Virus record (IMG/VR): IMGVR_UViG_3300044641_003951
Location: 1 to 20,523 of that record
Length of the DNA stretch: 20,523 nt
Origin: a virus
Reading direction: 5' to 3' (one strand)
Numbering within the stretch: position 1 is the first letter of the stretch; every line of letters starts with the position of its first letter. A model generated the notes under the pieces. The model saw nothing but the letters and a program-made list of their open reading frames with translations. It was not told the DNA's origin and did not search any database. Position numbers and translations under genes: made by a program. Positions 10,501-20,411 of this stretch are shown piece by piece.

Positions 10501-11964
10501 TTAAGCAGCGTTGTAAATAAAGCTTGCAGTTCTTGATGGATCTTTCACCATAATACCGCCTTGCCAGAACTTGTGCTCTTCCCAAGCATCTTCTGCAGTT
10601 CCTATTGCAGATACTTTACCATCTGGATCGAAAGGATTTCTAAGTCCAGGGATATACTTGTGAATAACAGTAGAACCTTTTACTTTAGTTTTTCTGATAT
10701 TAGCTTCACCATCGTTAGTTCCAATATCAAAAATATCATAACGATAAGATTCAGTTACACCTCCAAGTGGGTGGATTTGTTTGTTACGACTTCTGTCATC
10801 GTACATACCCATAATAGAAAGGTTTACTACAATACCGTTGAATGATTGGAATTCAACGAATTGTCCGCCATAACCCATACCCATTTTAATACCGTCTTTA
10901 CTTACTTTGTACATACGGTCAGTGTTTCTCAAAGGAGTAAACAATTGTACATAGTCTTCCATTGCTTTATGGAACTGCCATGCACCACGTTCACCTGTAC
11001 ACATCAAGAAAGCTCTTTCATCCATTCCAAGTTTAGCTTCAGACAAGTCCATCAAACGAGAAGCCAAGTCATCAATATCAAAAGTAGAATAGAAAGAAGT
11101 ATTGGCAGTTTCAGTTTGTTCTCTCAATCCAGAACCTTCTACTACAGAATATCCTGAAACATCTTTTTGAACGTAGTTACCATCAACAGTTCTGTTTGCA
11201 GTACCAAACATCAAAAGACGATTAATATCTTGACGGAATTCATTGTCCATCATGAATGATTCATAGTGTTGCCACATTTTATGAATGTTACCTGAATCGT
11301 CCTTAATGAAAGTTCCCATCTTACGACCAGAAAGATTACCAGGAGTTTTCTTTTTGATACGAATTTGAGAGAATGCATTACGCATTGAAATGTGAGACTT
11401 AAACTTAATATCACGTCCAGTAACTGACATAGTACGAGATACAGGAGCATACTCACGAGAGAATAATTTACCTGCTACAAGTTCTTCGTAAGGAACAAAC
11501 AAGAGAGGATCTCCACTCAAAAGCTCACATACGTAAACAGTGTTAGTACCTTCAGAGTACTGAGACTTAATACGAATAGGATACTTTTCGTTTTTCTCAC
11601 CTACGATTTTTTCAGTTACAGAGAACCAGTCTTTACCAAAAACAAGTTCAAATTCAGTGAAGTTTTTACCTGCTTCAGAAGCAGCAGTAACAGCTGTACC
11701 ATCTACACGAGCTTCAACAAGTGCAATGTTGTCTACACCTTTAGACATCAACTCCCAAGTGTAGTCAGTGTCATTTTCAAATTCTTTAGTTTCATAACGA
11801 TCAAGGAATCCCTCGATGTCATTACCAAAGTATTTTTGTTGAATAGTAGAAATGTAATCAGATGCTTTTTGTGGCATTTCTTGCCAGATAGCTCCAAGGT
11901 GGTTCTCAGTAGTGAGACCTTTCCATGAAGTTGCATCGGTCATTTGTAATGAACTAAGTTTCAT
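10501..11964 (-). CDS. Major capsid protein (HK97-like, crAss-type)
   Basis: The 487 aa protein begins MKLSSLQMTDATSWKGLTTE and continues with IWQEMPQKASDYISTIQQKY and ETKEFENDTDYTWELMSKG, an opening I associate with crAss-like major capsid proteins. Later segments AFSQIRIKKKTPGNLSG, RQDINRLLMFGTANRTVDGN, MCTGERGAWQFHKAMEDYVQ and VVNLSIMGMYDDRSRN fit a long helix plus peripheral and axial domains of an HK97 fold, though the fold is inferred. The size is typical for this group. It follows the scaffold-like gene by 15 bases, with an A-rich leader (AAAAATAAAAACAAAAT) and no Shine-Dalgarno sequence, the style of strongly translated Bacteroidota genes. Codons such as CGT and AAC/TAC appear more often than in the portal or terminase genes, consistent with high expression. 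Confidence 0.88.
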   Translation of the reverse strand: MKLSSLQMTDATSWKGLTTENHLGAIWQEMPQKASDYISTIQQKYFGNDIEGFLDRYETKEFENDTDYTWELMSKGVDNIALVEARVDGTAVTAASEAGKNFTEFELVFGKDWFSVTEKIVGEKNEKYPIRIKSQYSEGTNTVYVCELLSGDPLLFVPYEELVAGKLFSREYAPVSRTMSVTGRDIKFKSHISMRNAFSQIRIKKKTPGNLSGRKMGTFIKDDSGNIHKMWQHYESFMMDNEFRQDINRLLMFGTANRTVDGNYVQKDVSGYSVVEGSGLREQTETANTSFYSTFDIDDLASRLMDLSEAKLGMDERAFLMCTGERGAWQFHKAMEDYVQLFTPLRNTDRMYKVSKDGIKMGMGYGGQFVEFQSFNGIVVNLSIMGMYDDRSRNKQIHPLGGVTESYRYDIFDIGTNDGEANIRKTKVKGSTVIHKYIPGLRNPFDPDGKVSAIGTAEDAWEEHKFWQGGIMVKDPSRTASFIYNAA

Positions 11965-13251: not shown

Positions 13252-15684
13252 TTAGCTCTTAGGCTTATTTTTTGAAGCAGTAATTTTCTTCTTTTCTACT
13301 TCTCTATCAAGTTCATTTTCTTCTTTTTCGTGAGCTCTTTGTCTTGCATTTTCTGACTTCTCGTGTGCAAGTTCTTTAGCTAATTTTTCTTTATCAGCTT
13401 GAATCTTCATTACAGTCTCATTTGTAGTATCTGCAGTACCGTTGTCTTTAGATAATTCCATACTCTTTAAAAATGCATCAGCTTGCTGTTTCAATGTTTC
13501 AAGAGTAATTTCATTTTGGAGCTCTTTATCTAAAACAGTTAAGTCGTGATCTCTTTCTAATTGTTTTTCTTGAGCTGCAGCTTGTAGAGCTTGATTCTGA
13601 AGTTCTTGTTGTTTTTGTAACTTCATTTGTTCGTAGTCTTTCTTAGCCTGTTCAGAGACTTTAAACTTGTTTCTCATAGCTGATACAGAATCAGAAGTCC
13701 ATAAGTCCATTAGTTGACTAAAGTCTATGGTTCCTGCATTTAAAGCAGTTTCTGCTAATCTTCTAATGTTATCAAACATTTGTTTGTCTTGATAAGCATT
13801 TGAGATTTTTAAGTCGTAATCCATTTCAGCAAAATCTTCTCCATCAATTTCTACAATTTTGGATAAGAAATCGTCTAAAACAAATTGAGTTTTTTTATTT
13901 TTCTTATTTTTCCAAGCAATCTTAGCTGTTTCTAGTCCAGCTTCCAATACTCTCTTTTTAAGAAAATCATGTTCTGCAAACCAATATTCAGTAGTAAGCG
14001 AGCTTTGAGTTACAGATCTTTCTACTCCCCCTACAGTTTCTCTATTTTCAATAGCACCCTGTCTTTGAGGAGTAACACCTGCAATTTCTCCCATCTTTTG
14101 TTCAATGTAAGATAATGTACTTAAATAGAAGTTTAAGGACTGTCCCATTTCCATATCTAACACTGGATTCTGAACATTCATATTTCCTGCTAATTTACCC
14201 ATAGCAGCTCCTTTTTTACCTTCTTTAAAAGCATCAAAAGGAACGGCTTTCATGTATTTTGCATAATATAACCACATGTCAGTATTCCACCCATCAGGCA
14301 TTTCATGAGTAGGAATTTTCATGATTTTACCCCAGTTTGTTGCAATAAGTAATTCAGTGTTGTACCAAATAACATTATACAAATACTGATAAGGCTTCAT
14401 TCTGTCCATCAAGGACATTCCATAATTATCATTGGTATTATAAATAGTTCCTACAATTCCTGGGTAACATTTGGAAGGATTTTCCATTTGTCTGAATTGT
14501 ATAGGTCTAGGCTGTATTTTACAGTAAATAGCTGTCTTAGAGTACCCAGCTCCACCTCCTATTTTGTGACCTTCCCACCATTCATTAATCCAAATAGTCT
14601 CTAGAGTCTCTCCCATAGCTTCATTAGCTACGTAGTTTTCATCTACTAAGTCTTCTTGCTCTATTCCAAATCTATCGAAAAACTTGCGTTTAAACATTTT
14701 TCTCATAGACTTCCAGTATACTCTCAATACACGAATATTACCATCTGGGTCAAATGCTGGAGAGAATTGATTTATATCATTTTCAAGAAGTGCTATATCA
14801 ATAGACTCTTCCACTTTCAAAGCCAAATGTTGAGGGCCTACTTTAGGATCGAAAGCCTTACTAGTAGCATTGCCTCCTACTCCAAAATAGTTTTCAAGAG
14901 TGTCTATCTCTGCATCTGATAAATATTCGTTATATTCATCAATCAACTTACCTATAGAGTAATATTCTTCAATTAAGATAATATCTGCATCTTCTATGTA
15001 AGGAGACTCTCCTGAACGAACTGTGTAAACCTTTAAAGGATTAATAAGTTTACAAACGGGTTCTCCACCTATAATATCCCATTGATAGATTTCTTCGGAA
15101 CTTAACAAAGCATTCTTAAATCCTTTATTGAAAAGGACTTCTAACCTATTCTTTTCCCATAAATGTTTTAAAATCCAAGTAGCTCTAGCTTCTCTTATAT
15201 CTTGATAAGAGTAGTTCATATAAGCTTGAAAGTCAGCAATTTTTCTTTGAAGTTCTTCTTGAGAAGAGGACTCTGATTCAAGTTGTTGAATGATAAATTT
15301 TTTCCACTCTTCTTGAATGTTCTTTTCTTTTTGAGAAATTGCATCTTCGTTTATAACTCGGACTTTCCAGTCGAACTTACGTCTAGACTCTTCTCCAATT
15401 AATAGATCAATTTTAGGATTACACAAAGGGTAATTCTGCATTTTAATAGGAGTAGACAGTCCCTGTAACTTTAATGGATTACAAATTTGTTCAATGTCCT
15501 GTTGATCTATTATATTTGAGTATAAATTGAAATTTATTCTCTTATTTCTTTTTGACTTCCTGATGCTCTTATTTAAATACATGGCGATAGACTCTGCACC
15601 ATTAATGCAGTCTTCTCTCCACTTATCATTTTTCTTTGAATGTGGTTTCTTTTGAGCAGGAAACTTAGCTAACAAATATCCCAT
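13252..15684 (-). CDS. Portal protein
   Basis: The 810 aa product has the length and order expected of a crAss-type portal, the dodecameric ring through which DNA is packaged and ejected. The N-terminus contains GAESIAMYLNKSIRKSKRNK and a wing region with YPLCNPKIDLLIGEESRRKF. The middle has YQWDIIGGEPVCKLINPLKV, WINEWWEGHKIGGG, and KPYQYLYNVIWYNTELLIAT, which likely forms the stem-side helices, then GEIAGVTPQRQGAIENRETV, a phrase typical of portals before the long crown helix. The last 140 residues are a charged coiled coil (QKQQELQNQALQAAAQEKQL and LAKELAHEKSENARQRAHE), the barrel-like tail. It follows TerL by 15 bases. Assignment rests on motifs, size and position. Confidence 0.85.
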   Translation of the reverse strand: MGYLLAKFPAQKKPHSKKNDKWREDCINGAESIAMYLNKSIRKSKRNKRINFNLYSNIIDQQDIEQICNPLKLQGLSTPIKMQNYPLCNPKIDLLIGEESRRKFDWKVRVINEDAISQKEKNIQEEWKKFIIQQLESESSSQEELQRKIADFQAYMNYSYQDIREARATWILKHLWEKNRLEVLFNKGFKNALLSSEEIYQWDIIGGEPVCKLINPLKVYTVRSGESPYIEDADIILIEEYYSIGKLIDEYNEYLSDAEIDTLENYFGVGGNATSKAFDPKVGPQHLALKVEESIDIALLENDINQFSPAFDPDGNIRVLRVYWKSMRKMFKRKFFDRFGIEQEDLVDENYVANEAMGETLETIWINEWWEGHKIGGGAGYSKTAIYCKIQPRPIQFRQMENPSKCYPGIVGTIYNTNDNYGMSLMDRMKPYQYLYNVIWYNTELLIATNWGKIMKIPTHEMPDGWNTDMWLYYAKYMKAVPFDAFKEGKKGAAMGKLAGNMNVQNPVLDMEMGQSLNFYLSTLSYIEQKMGEIAGVTPQRQGAIENRETVGGVERSVTQSSLTTEYWFAEHDFLKKRVLEAGLETAKIAWKNKKNKKTQFVLDDFLSKIVEIDGEDFAEMDYDLKISNAYQDKQMFDNIRRLAETALNAGTIDFSQLMDLWTSDSVSAMRNKFKVSEQAKKDYEQMKLQKQQELQNQALQAAAQEKQLERDHDLTVLDKELQNEITLETLKQQADAFLKSMELSKDNGTADTTNETVMKIQADKEKLAKELAHEKSENARQRAHEKEENELDREVEKKKITASKNKPKS

Positions 15685-15699
15685 AAGGCCGTTATACGT

Positions 15700-17979
15700 T
15701 TATTTATTTATAAGGTTTTGTCTTTGTTGAGGACTGTAATAATTCCTTATCCAGTAATCTGAAGGGTCAATTTCAGGAGTTTCTTCTACATGCCCTAAGT
15801 AACGCAGTTGATCTTCCCTATAAATCATCAACATCCCTAAAGCAGAGACTCGGTCAAAGTTCCCATCAGGATTCCATCCAATAGTCTCTTTTATAGCTGC
15901 AGGACTTCTTAATGTATGTAGTCTTAAATAGTTTGAGGTCTGCTCTCCTTCATCATTAAATGTTTGAGTAATAGCAGGGCCTCTTAACCATTGGTTATAA
16001 AGCGATCTTCCCCAAGCATTAATGTTCTTCCCTGGAGGAGTACCCTTTGACCTATTTCCGCTTCCTAAGTCTCTAACCATTTCCATTTGTTTTAGAATTT
16101 TAGGAGTATCAGCTAAGCGATATAATTTATTTCTATTAGAAAGATAACCAAAAAGTCCTTTATTAAAGTTCTCATAATTACATACTGCATTATAATAGTC
16201 GAGAATAAGTTCTACATTTTTATAAAACTCGTCTGCAGTTTCTGCTCTTCCAGTATACTCACATACAATTTCATCTGTAATTAAATCAAGGACAAATAAA
16301 GAACCTAAAGAATCAGTTGTAGAATCATCTTGGTCATAAGAGTCACAGCCTGCAATGTATCTTCTGAATGGAATTTTACCTGAGCTATCTTTTATTGGAG
16401 GATGAAATATTTCAATAGCTCCGTGTCTTTTGTTGTCTTTTAATGGAAAGTCTCTAATAGGCATTGACATTGCATCTATCGTAAACTTAACTTCAGTTCC
16501 TGTATTAATCAATTTACCTATGTAATGTCCAGAAGTAAATGAAGATAAGTTAGGCATTATAGTAGATAAATGCTCTTTTAGTTCGCCAATTGGAAATAAA
16601 TTCCCTTGGACTCTCATTACAGCATCTTGAGGAGTAATAGAGTAATCAGCTTTAAACTGAGTTATAGTACTAGGACTTTTAGTTCTCCACTCTAGCATAA
16701 TCTCTGCTAAAGCTTTTAATACATCTGAATTACCATTTTTATCGTAGCAGTACTCTCGATTTAGATACTCTCCTACATAAAAAGCGCATCTAGATTTATG
16801 TGAATTCTTGTCAAATACATTAGGTAAAGAATAAACATCGTGAGAATCTGGGTCATAAAAAAGAGACTCCATTGCTTCAAATGCAGGGCCAGCTGTTCCT
16901 CCAGTTCCAAAACTAGTCATAAGTCCGAAGACTTTTTTACCTTGTTTCATAGAACCTAAAGCAATAGTCCATCCTTTTACTCCATTAGGAAAGTTACCAA
17001 ACTCTTCCCAAAGAACTTCTCTACCTGCTTTACCCCTTGCTTTTTCAATTTTATTATTTAAGGTAACACCTATAATTTCATTTTTTCTTCCTTTTTCTAG
17101 TCCTGTAACAGGATCTCTATAAGAGGCTCTCTTGTGTTCATCAGTGTCTTTATAGTCTCTAGGCTGAGTCCAAGCTGTGTGCTCATCTATAAAGTTTAGG
17201 ATGTTCCAAGTTTTGTCATTTAATAATCCATCTTTATATAGATAGTCCCCCTCAGAGGCCATTGCATACATCTTCTGTCCTCTATACAAAAAGTAAGGTC
17301 TAGCTAAAACACTTCCTCCTTTAAATGAATATCCTCTACGTCTAGTTTTCAGTACATTACAGTGCTTACCTTTACTTCTTGCTTGAAATCTATAGTGAAA
17401 ATATAAATAGTCTCCATCCCAAATTGCTGGAAAGTCTGTCTGTCTTACTGCCTCTGAATTAGACATGTCAATTAAGTCTTCAGCTGAAGGAGGAGAATAA
17501 TTTAAATTTTCATTATCATCTTCTGAAGTTACAACTTGGATAGGACAAAAATTTAAATAAAAGTAATGTTCTCCTGTAATCCATTCTCCGTCTTCTCTAA
17601 TATAACCTTCGTCACATCTTCTTGCTTGCTCATCCCAGTATTTTCTGAAATCAGAGTTAGGGTCTCCACTTTCAAATGCAAAAGTATAAACTCCAAATTC
17701 TTTAAAGTGCTGAGCTGCAGGACTAAAGAATTCCATATTCTCTAAAATATGAGGCTCAGTTATACTTACTATAACTCTTCCTTTAGAATCTTTAGAAAGG
17801 TCTTTTACAGATTTTCTATCTGCTCTTAAAAAATTATATACAAAAGGTACACTCTCTATGAATTCAATTAAATCTGCTCTTAGTCTAGTATCTGTTAAAG
17901 TACTTAAAAGATTTTTAGACTGGCTATTTAATTTCTCAATCAGCGTAGACTCCTTTTTTTCTGCCTCCTCGTAAGTCAT
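15700..17979 (-). CDS. terL: Terminase large subunit (TerL)
   Basis: The 759 aa protein is the ATPase-nuclease motor that packages DNA. The ATPase half shows a variant Walker A, KTRRRGYSFKG at 211-221, common in crAss-type terminases in place of GxxxxGKT. Walker B with catalytic Glu is EVLWEEFG at 321-328 (Glu325/Glu326), and the coupling motif is LMTSFGTGG at 353-361. The nuclease half has YIAGCDSYDQDD with Asp546, a possible second acidic residue near 602-612 (NYENFNKGLFGY), and the C-terminal Asp709 in FDRVSALGMLMIY. All key positions look intact. The start at 17979 overlaps the upstream 181 aa gene by 44 nt; no later Met could replace it without losing conserved N-terminal sequence. A run of seven A residues lies in the overlap. 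Confidence 0.93.
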   Translation of the reverse strand: MTYEEAEKKESTLIEKLNSQSKNLLSTLTDTRLRADLIEFIESVPFVYNFLRADRKSVKDLSKDSKGRVIVSITEPHILENMEFFSPAAQHFKEFGVYTFAFESGDPNSDFRKYWDEQARRCDEGYIREDGEWITGEHYFYLNFCPIQVVTSEDDNENLNYSPPSAEDLIDMSNSEAVRQTDFPAIWDGDYLYFHYRFQARSKGKHCNVLKTRRRGYSFKGGSVLARPYFLYRGQKMYAMASEGDYLYKDGLLNDKTWNILNFIDEHTAWTQPRDYKDTDEHKRASYRDPVTGLEKGRKNEIIGVTLNNKIEKARGKAGREVLWEEFGNFPNGVKGWTIALGSMKQGKKVFGLMTSFGTGGTAGPAFEAMESLFYDPDSHDVYSLPNVFDKNSHKSRCAFYVGEYLNREYCYDKNGNSDVLKALAEIMLEWRTKSPSTITQFKADYSITPQDAVMRVQGNLFPIGELKEHLSTIMPNLSSFTSGHYIGKLINTGTEVKFTIDAMSMPIRDFPLKDNKRHGAIEIFHPPIKDSSGKIPFRRYIAGCDSYDQDDSTTDSLGSLFVLDLITDEIVCEYTGRAETADEFYKNVELILDYYNAVCNYENFNKGLFGYLSNRNKLYRLADTPKILKQMEMVRDLGSGNRSKGTPPGKNINAWGRSLYNQWLRGPAITQTFNDEGEQTSNYLRLHTLRSPAAIKETIGWNPDGNFDRVSALGMLMIYREDQLRYLGHVEETPEIDPSDYWIRNYYSPQQRQNLINK

Positions 17980-18481
17980 TTTTAGTAGCTTCTTCTTCTT
18001 TTAACATTTTTTCTAAACTCTGAACTTCTTTCCAAGTACTTGCCATAGACTTAATGGTGTCATTAATCTGTTTAGCATTGTACTTAGGTTTACCAGATTT
18101 GTCAGTTTCTGATAAGTTTATATTTCTCAAGAATTTGTCTAACTTAGATACTCCTATTAGAGTACCTTCATATATTTCAGATAGAACAGTTTTTGATCTT
18201 TGCTTATAAAATTCAATAGCTGAATTTACTTCTGCATCAGGCTCCCATCCTGGAGGAAGACCTTTTACATATCCACGTACTGCTCTTATTTTATCTTCAT
18301 AGTCTATAATAGCAGAAAAGTCCGATTTTCTATCGGACATATGATAAACAACACTAAGCTCAGCTATACATGTAACTTTGTCTTTGCTAGTGTCTCTATC
18401 CCATAAAACAGCAAATGGTTTTAGTGTCAATGCTGCGGGATCTACTTCAAGTTTATAATTTACTAATCTAAATAAATTCAT
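17936..18481 (-). CDS. Candidate terminase small subunit or packaging accessory protein
   Basis: The 181 aa protein lies directly upstream of TerL and overlaps it by 44 nt. The first 75 residues are mixed alpha/beta (MNLFRLVNYKLEVDPAALTL, KPFAVLWDRDTSKDKVTCI, SVVYHMSDRKSDFSAIIDYE). The rest is helical, with AIEFYKQRSKTVLSEIYEGT and AKQINDTIKSMASTWKEVQS, and ends in a basic tail GGRKKGVYAD. The place and the helical, basic C-terminus would suit a small terminase subunit, but I see no clear helix-turn-helix, so the call is positional. A seven-base stem at 18320-18338 (GTCCGAT/ATCGGAC), followed by TTTTCT on the minus strand, lies inside the gene. Confidence 0.5.
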   Translation of the reverse strand: MNLFRLVNYKLEVDPAALTLKPFAVLWDRDTSKDKVTCIAELSVVYHMSDRKSDFSAIIDYEDKIRAVRGYVKGLPPGWEPDAEVNSAIEFYKQRSKTVLSEIYEGTLIGVSKLDKFLRNINLSETDKSGKPKYNAKQINDTIKSMASTWKEVQSLEKMLKEEEATKNDLRGGRKKGVYAD

Positions 18482-18732: not shown

Positions 18733-18999
18733 TTACCATTTTTCTTTTGGACATTTATTTTCTTGGTGGAATGATTTTGTCTTTGCAACAATAGGACACC
18801 CACATCCTCCTTTACTTTTAGAACAAATATTTGCAACATTAAGAGAGCAGCTACTACAAATAACCGCTCTCTCAGTTGCTATCCTTCTTTCTTCTTCTGT
18901 CATGGGTACAAGTCCAGTTGCATGAGCCCATCCATTAATAATGTTTTCTAGCTTCTTTTGGATTGAAGTTTTCGAGCTTCTCTGCTTTGATTGTCCCAT
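18733..18999 (-). CDS. Zinc-ribbon-like small protein
   Basis: The 88 aa product has a basic N-terminal helix (GQSKQRSSKTSIQKKLENII), a connecting segment EEERRIATERAVIC, and a cysteine domain with Cys at 48, 51, 59, 66, 68 and 83. The pattern CSSC, then ICS, GGCGCP and finally KCPKEKW matches a zinc-binding family I know from many phages (ending K-C-P-x-x-K-W). Two close cysteine pairs plus Cys83 would hold one or two metal ions. The function is unknown; a nucleic-acid or protein adaptor is likely. The start overlaps the preceding gene by 52 nt; a shorter start at Met33 would remove the overlap and keep the whole zinc domain, so the N-terminus is uncertain. Confidence 0.7.
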   Translation of the reverse strand: MGQSKQRSSKTSIQKKLENIINGWAHATGLVPMTEEERRIATERAVICSSCSLNVANICSKSKGGCGCPIVAKTKSFHQENKCPKEKW

Positions 19000-19292
19000 C
19001 TTTTGTAGTAAGCTGCTGTTTTTTTACTTTCTGGTCTATGAAGACTAGTAGTAAAATGATTAATTTTCTCTTGGTCTAAGCTCTTTTCAGGAGTCTTAAT
19101 ACAACAGTACAGTCCTGAATTTTGCTTATCTCTAGTTTCTTTAAATTCAAAAGATCCTATTTTATAGTACAAAAGTTTATCTAAATCATTGTAACCAAAA
19201 GTCCAAGACCAAGATGTATTAGAATCTTTTAATTCTTTAGATAAACTTTCAATTTGATCTCTAGAATAAAACTCTCCTAATATTATTTCCAT
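18948..19292 (-). CDS. Hypothetical protein, 114 aa
   Basis: This protein begins MEIILGEFYSRDQIESLSKE and has a compact alpha/beta core with SWSWTFGYNDLDKLLYYKIG and SGLYCCIKTPEKSLD. A basic C-terminal helix (KKTAAYYKRWDNQSREARKL) follows. It contains no catalytic motif I recognise. The positive tail could contact nucleic acid. It overlaps the GroES-like gene by 10 nt and the zinc-ribbon gene by 52 nt, and ends with TAG. The overlap with the next gene is long, so one of the two boundaries may be shorter in reality. Its place between a co-chaperonin-like gene and a zinc protein gives little hint of function. Confidence 0.6.
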   Translation of the reverse strand: MEIILGEFYSRDQIESLSKELKDSNTSWSWTFGYNDLDKLLYYKIGSFEFKETRDKQNSGLYCCIKTPEKSLDQEKINHFTTSLHRPESKKTAAYYKRWDNQSREARKLQSKRS

Positions 19293-19648
19293 GTTGCATT
19301 AATATCTCCCTCTGAACAACTCATCCATTCGATAATATGTTCATCAGAATTTGTTCTTAAATTTTTAGTTGTCTTCCATTTAATAGGATTAGAGAAAGCT
19401 CTTTCTCTTCCAGTAGGATTCAGACTCACAATGTCTCCAATTTTTACTTGAGTAATGTTGGGATCTACAGCAATTACTTCGAATTTCATTACTCCATCTG
19501 GGAACATCTCTCTGGTTTTTTTCATCATAATATCTTCCTTGGATTCATTGCCAAGAATAATATCACTTTGTTTTACATCCACCATAGGATTTTTAATAAC
19601 TACTCCTCTGTTTATTGGAGTAGGCATAAGTGTTTTAGTTGTTTCCAT
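19283..19648 (-). CDS. GroES-like (Cpn10 family) co-chaperonin
   Basis: The 121 aa protein follows the GroES layout along its length. An N-terminal strand PINRGVVIKNP (11-21) equals P-x-x-D-R-V-x-V-K in GroES. A flexible loop carries IIL at 30-32 in KQSDIILGNESKED, the position of the GroES mobile-loop hydrophobic tripeptide (IVL) that grips GroEL. KFEVIAVDPNITQVKIGDIV (55-74) equals G-E-V-x-A-V-G...V-K-x-G-D-x-V, and EHIIEWMSCSEGDINATW (103-120) equals E-x-x-x-I-M-x-E-x-D-I-L-A. Phage T4 gp31 is the known precedent: it replaces host GroES with GroEL for folding of the capsid protein. Here the gene is upstream of terminase and capsid genes in the same direction, so a similar job is plausible. 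It overlaps neighbours by 14 and 10 nt. Confidence 0.75.
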   Translation of the reverse strand: METTKTLMPTPINRGVVIKNPMVDVKQSDIILGNESKEDIMMKKTREMFPDGVMKFEVIAVDPNITQVKIGDIVSLNPTGRERAFSNPIKWKTTKNLRTNSDEHIIEWMSCSEGDINATWK

Positions 19649-19934
19649 TAGTCTTCTCTTTTAATTTTTCTTCTTCAATTAATTGTTTAATGTACTCTGC
19701 TTTTGCTTGGGTGAAAGCTCCCCATTTGTGTGAAGGCCAAACTACTTCTCCTTTTAGTTTTAATTTCTTCACTTGATTATTAAATCGTCTTCTTACTTTG
19801 TATTCTTCAAAAGACTCTTCTGCTAATCTATAAGCTCTGTCTGTATTAAAAAGTTTAAACTCTTTTTCATCTACATTTAGCTTACGATAGGGAATTCCAT
19901 CTTCTGTGTGAAATACTTCTTCTTGATTCTCCAT
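19635..19934 (-). CDS. Hypothetical basic helical protein, 99 aa
   Basis: The 99 aa product starts MENQEEVFHTEDGIPYRKLN and is mostly charged helix: TDRAYRLAEESFEEYKVRRR, NNQVKKLKLKGEVVWPSHKW, and AKAEYIKQLIEEEKLKEKTN. The middle phrase EVVWPSHKWGAFT suggests a short strand or turn with two Trp residues. There is no membrane segment and no cysteine. It overlaps the GroES-like gene by 14 nt and is joined to the gene upstream as TAATG. Translational coupling with the co-chaperonin-like gene is likely, which could reflect shared timing. I do not recognise a family. Confidence 0.6.
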   Translation of the reverse strand: MENQEEVFHTEDGIPYRKLNVDEKEFKLFNTDRAYRLAEESFEEYKVRRRFNNQVKKLKLKGEVVWPSHKWGAFTQAKAEYIKQLIEEEKLKEKTNGNN

Positions 19935-20191
19935 TACATATGTATTTTAATCATTGCCTCTTGTAAAATATCTTTAATATCTTTCCAGTGTCCTTCTAAG
20001 GAGAAGTTACCTGTACTTGAGACTATATCAGTGTAAGGTATATTACTGTCCCTTAAAACTACTGAAGCTGAGATGTGATACAATTCAAATTCAGGCCCTA
20101 CAAACAATATACCTTCTCTTTTTAAGATTTGTGTGGTTCCATTGGGAACAGCTGTTGCATATACAACAGGAACTTCAATCACTTGTTTCAT
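19934..20191 (-). CDS. Hypothetical protein, 85 aa
   Basis: An 85 aa alpha/beta protein begins MKQVIEVPVVYATAVPNGTT, has the strands REGILFVGPEFELYHISASV and SNIPYTDIVSSTGNFSLEG, and closes with a C-terminal helix KDIKDILQEAMIKIH. No motif is recognised and no cysteine or membrane span is present. It overlaps the HU/IHF-like gene by 17 nt and shares a TAATG junction with the next gene, so it belongs to the same transcript. Confidence 0.6.
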   Translation of the reverse strand: MKQVIEVPVVYATAVPNGTTQILKREGILFVGPEFELYHISASVVLRDSNIPYTDIVSSTGNFSLEGHWKDIKDILQEAMIKIHM

Positions 20192-20411
20192 TCTTTTCTT
20201 TAAAAGTTAATTTATCAATTCGTTTTGTCAAAGGTACAAATTTTCCTAATCCAACAATTAATATTGTCTTAAAACTTTTAGAATTTTTTTTGTCTCCTTC
20301 AGCTAAAGTTTTTCTGAGAAGTTCACATTGTGATCTGTGAATCTGTTCAACTACATTTACAGGAACATTATGCTTCTCTGCTATTAGCTTCATTATATCT
20401 CCTTGCGTCAT
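20175..20411 (-). CDS. HU/IHF-like DNA-binding protein (arm-less)
   Basis: This 78 aa protein matches the helical half of HU/IHF proteins: MKLIAEKHNVPVNVVEQIHR and LLRKTLAEGDK correspond to the two helices, and TILIVGLGKFVPLTKRIDK corresponds to the conserved strand V-x-L-x-G-F-G-x-F with GLGKF at 54-58. In HU the next 30 residues form the flexible arm that wraps DNA; here the protein ends soon after, so that arm is missing or much shortened. IHF/HU-type genes are known in crAss-like phages. Roles could be genome compaction, packaging or dimerisation with another HU. A six-residue insertion (KKNSKSF) precedes the strand. The start overlaps the partial upstream gene by 44 nt. Confidence 0.7.
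   Translation of the reverse strand: MTQGDIMKLIAEKHNVPVNVVEQIHRSQCELLRKTLAEGDKKNSKSFKTILIVGLGKFVPLTKRIDKLTFKEKNETSD

Follow-up and report, generated by a model that had tools for sequence, protein, structure and literature searches.

A probable GroES-type co-chaperonin encoded near the terminase genes of a divergent crAss-like phage

CrAss-like phages rank among the most abundant phages in the human gut. A gene named 10kDa chaperonin is found in dozens of Crassvirales records, including that of crAss001 (Kehishuvirus primarius, NC_049977), in which gp15 is annotated as 'putative 10kDa chaperonin' and the gene order is HU, gp15, two hypotheticals, an intron endonuclease and the terminase. According to the transcription of crAss001, its late-gene assembly proteins include a chaperone along with the terminase (PMC8375218). 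No dedicated study of crAss-like co-chaperonins was found in the literature. The function of such a protein is proven for gp31 of phage T4 (PDB 1g31, 2cgt), which has no roof hairpin and possesses a longer mobile loop; in complex with GroEL, gp31 gives a cage enlarged by about 8%, proposed to allow folding of the ~56-kDa capsid protein gp23 (PMC6318259).

The stretch of DNA analyzed here (hereafter the window), a viral record of 20.5 kb, is a fragment of a crAss-like phage as indicated by matches to Crass_capsid, portal and terminase. The genes of the window discussed below are as follows.

10501-11964, minus strand: major capsid protein, 487 aa, 55.3 kDa (Pfam Crass_capsid, E = 8.8e-133)
13252-15684, minus strand: portal protein (phrog_6547, E = 3.7e-129)
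15700-17979, minus strand: terminase large subunit, TerL (phrog_6681, E = 1.5e-103)
17936-18481, minus strand: putative terminase small subunit, TerS (crAss gene-86-like), adjoining terL and similar to syntenic ORFs
19283-19648, minus strand: GroES-like (Cpn10-like) co-chaperonin, 121 aa, 13.8 kDa, assigned with a profile of its relatives and an AlphaFold2 model
19635-19934, minus strand: uncharacterised 99-aa gene that immediately precedes the GroES-like gene and overlaps it by 14 bases
20175-20411, minus strand: 78-aa DNA-binding protein of the IHF/HU type (hit to Pfam Bac_DNA_binding under the cut-off, E = 0.003), matching syntenic ORFs of relatives

The capsid, portal, terminase and lysis genes share one direction with the GroES-like ORF, and TerL and the major capsid protein are encoded downstream of it on the same strand, so the shared direction and proximity claimed in an initial sequence-only reading of this DNA hold. 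The order IHF, GroES-like gene, TerS, TerL on the same strand is common to the window, its relatives and crAss001, the assignment of TerS following the proposal made for crAss gene 86 (PMC7886860). In crAss-like phages an IHF/HU-like gene usually neighbours this locus on its upstream side, and the 99-aa gene is homologous to the one that immediately precedes the GroES-like gene in the relatives L006 and L007 (E = 2.2e-7). Some close relatives, namely L004 and L011, show no GroES-like gene at this locus.

Several other ORFs of the window, all on the minus strand, deserve mention. An 88-aa Cys-rich ORF at 18733-18999 may encode a zinc ribbon and matches phrog_13558 of unknown function (E = 9.3e-7). 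The 134-aa product of the ORF at 2084-2488 contains GHECQHIVNH, a motif of the HExxH type, and resembles a small metalloprotease, with no match in Pfam. Lysis proteins are represented by a CHAP/NlpC-P60 domain endolysin (1252-1716, E = 2.5e-9) and a Phage_holin_4_1 holin (2490-2921, E = 2.3e-7).

The GroES-like ORF starts with the ATG at 19648, overlaps both adjoining genes by a few bases each and is interrupted by stops when 19283-19648 is translated on the plus strand. The motifs listed in the sequence-only reading as falling in GroES order are all present in the 121-aa protein encoded on the minus strand: the strand GVVIK at residues 15-19, the tripeptide IIL at 30-32, VKIGDIV at 68-74 and EGDI at 113-116. 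The protein thus shares with bacterial GroES (Cpn10, PF00166) the strand order, the hydrophobic tripeptide of the loop, the G-D-x-V turn and the S-E-x-D-I final strand.

Searches with the lone protein as query were negative across PHROGs, Pfam, PDB, GenBank phages and IMG/VR, and its family was therefore reached via relatives of TerL. Eighty terminase relatives were fetched, and upstream of the terminase many of them contain an ORF of 105-240 aa with GroES features, flanked by an IHF/HU-like gene and the TerS-like gene. An iterated profile seeded with 12 of these syntenic ORFs, chosen by eye, found the window ORF with E = 0.0027 at first and 4.1e-5 later, the ORF still being outside the profile. 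Profile A2, consisting of 24 relatives with the window protein left out, recovered the ORF from a set of 4562 with E = 2.8e-4 and 18.7 bits, the best of 5000 shuffles reaching 11.7 bits. When A2 was compared with PDB, Cpn10/GroES proteins ranked best, with E values of 1.4e-6 for Mycobacterium tuberculosis Cpn10 and 0.0033 for Escherichia coli GroES, and the alignments to GroES covered about 105 profile positions and nearly the whole GroES chain.

The identity of the window protein to its family relatives is 10-25%. The Pfam Cpn10 model (PF00166) has no match in the window above its curated cut-off, and it misses almost the entire family, with L006 and L059 falling just below the cut-off at E about 0.001. 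Since the family profile does find GroES, the miss of the window protein is likely explained by the limited sensitivity of the Pfam model. Judging by these profile searches, ORF 19283-19648 is most likely a very divergent member of the known crAss-like phage GroES-like (10kDa chaperonin) family. The interpretation given in the sequence-only reading is supported, although this kind of gene is less new than was implied there, since it had already been annotated in crAss001 and related phages; the family is known by annotation and counts the window protein among its remote members. The co-chaperonin kind of gut crAss phages is in this way extended to a very divergent crAss-like phage in which standard family searches miss it.

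An AlphaFold2 model of the window protein was built from 30 aligned sequences and has a pLDDT of 76, with residues 83-102 below 50 and unreliable. The Foldseek comparison of this model with PDB placed T4 gp31 at the top, and the matches ranked 1-15 are all gp31, Cpn10 or GroES, with probabilities of 0.72-1.00 and TM-scores of 0.40-0.45 by model length; no match reached an E value of 1e-3 or below. Against viral models, the named matches near the top of the Foldseek results are mainly co-chaperonins. As the input alignment includes the relatives, the structural evidence and the sequence evidence are partly interdependent.

A second structural aligner gave middling Z-scores (up to 7.8) and put GroES level with the GroES-fold domains of oxidoreductases, a tie to be expected from the shared fold, so that this result confirms the predicted fold class and not the function. 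An oxidoreductase domain was rejected as an identity for the protein, which is a single short barrel lacking a nucleotide-binding domain, is encoded in a phage head operon and has GroES as its top-ranked match in both Foldseek and the sequence profile. A GroES-type β-barrel is thus predicted for the window protein, and neither of the outcomes named beforehand as speaking against the GroES assignment, i.e. another fold or another family as the clear best match, occurred.

The protein departs from bacterial GroES mainly in two regions, indicated below.

19481-19591, minus strand: segment of the mobile loop (residues 20-56), comprising the IIL tripeptide at 30-32 and a helix predicted at 37-48
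19436-19462, minus strand: short turn in place of the GroES roof hairpin, residues 63-71, identified by length comparison

The segment separating the two strands on either side of the mobile loop measures 37 residues in the window protein, against 25 in E. coli GroES and a range of 18-34 among 29 relatives, which makes the window copy the longest among the proteins compared. The insert after the mobile loop claimed in the sequence-only reading is therefore present, though with 12 residues (37 vs 25) it is slightly shorter than the approximately 15 suggested. The surplus residues come after IIL, where residues 37-48 form a helix in the AlphaFold2 model; residues 41-52 of the protein read MMKKTREMFPDG. 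Hydrophobic triplets were found in 15 of the 30 family loops vs 8 expected, and because only half of the loops carry one, the GroEL contact does not appear to be sharply conserved across the family.

The roof region consists of 9 residues in the window protein compared to 18 in E. coli GroES, and of 8-10 residues in all the relatives but one, which has 14. By this measure a roof hairpin is absent from all the crAss-like members compared, as it is from T4 gp31, and roof loss of the gp31 type is general across these proteins.

With regard to individual described proteins, crAss001 gp15 belongs to the same family, occupies the same locus between HU/IHF and TerS-TerL and has the same short roof turn (VAVGPMVRGIEVGD), whereas no pairwise match between the two was obtained by tblastn, and the window protein has a longer mobile-loop segment and lacks the extended C-terminal tail of gp15. 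T4 gp31 is likewise roofless with a lengthened mobile loop, and the masses of the two capsid proteins, ~56 kDa for gp23 (PMC6318259) and 55.3 kDa here, are close, although gp31 comes from a different phage group and shares 14-17% identity with the window protein in structure alignments. The parallel with the gp31/gp23 pair is suggestive of the 55.3-kDa capsid protein as the client.

The ORF very probably codes for a GroES-type co-chaperonin of the phage, which would act as a gp31-like lid for host GroEL, with the capsid protein as its most plausible client. In such a mechanism the subunits would assemble as a heptameric ring, and the long mobile loop would put the hydrophobic IIL into the apical domains of host GroEL, the ring shutting the folding cage and replacing host GroES late in infection. 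The loss of the roof hairpin and the long loop segment would give a taller cage with an open top, resembling that of T4 gp31, in which a protein close to the size limit could fold late in infection; the most plausible candidate for this client is the major capsid protein of 55 kDa. If the protein works in this way, crAss-like phages would provide a second, unrelated phage group for testing the enlarged cage in capsid folding. A broader suggestion, which we regard as possible but doubtful, is that Crassvirales generally use roofless gp31-like lids to enlarge the host cage for a capsid protein of ~55 kDa, and that the lineage of the window has gone furthest, its extra helix after the GroEL-binding tripeptide retuning the contact with the GroEL of its host.

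The partner of the co-chaperonin might instead be a GroEL encoded elsewhere in the same phage genome. Cpn60 is encoded in 11 of 28 related records, in several of them beside the GroES-like gene and TerL, GroEL is annotated in cr108_1 and in Cellulophaga phage phi14:2, and the window is a fragment of just 20.5 kb. However, there is no GroEL gene within the window, although it spans the stretch just upstream of TerL where GroEL is often located in the relatives bearing it, nor is there one in the long contigs (79-98 kb) to which the relatives L004, L010 and L013 belong, so a phage-encoded partner seems rather unlikely here. It is less likely still that the protein has kept the GroES fold, lost its service to GroEL and become a part of the virion or its assembly, such as a head-completion (stopper) protein. 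The gene does lie among head genes, the best lone-sequence match in PDB, although non-significant, was the phage stopper gp12 (28 residues, E = 1.2), and profile A1 matched the same stopper with E = 0.0041. This match (10lj_A) comprises only 24-28 residues around VKxGDxV, compared with about 105 profile positions for GroES, and drops to E = 0.064 once the window protein is excluded from the profile; moreover, the published atlas of crAss001 virion structure makes no mention of gp15 (PMC10172136). Identity as a stopper protein was rejected, the similarity being a short local match and not one over the whole chain.

The low identity of 10-25% and the empty lone-protein searches would also fit a chance resemblance, with an unrelated small phage protein occupying a variable locus. 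This is the least probable of the explanations and is highly improbable in itself, given a profile score above those of all 5000 shuffles, neighbours shared on both sides and gp31 leading the structure matches. A GroES-type co-chaperonin serving host GroEL is the reading that we prefer.

GroEL genes were observed in many environmental crAss-like contigs, namely L015 (1975-3564), L077 (4520-5983) and the records of L017, L018, L036, L037, L040, L042 and L051, and a crAss capsid protein is also present in seven of the 11 GroEL-bearing records. In L053 (2889-5381) and L055, a GroEL of 831 aa is encoded just upstream of TerL. An insertion of some 330 residues splits its ATP-site motif, AGDG/TTT; the insertion contains a LAGLIDADG domain, ends with ILTHN followed by TTTA and, from these motifs, resembles an intein lodged in the phage chaperonin.
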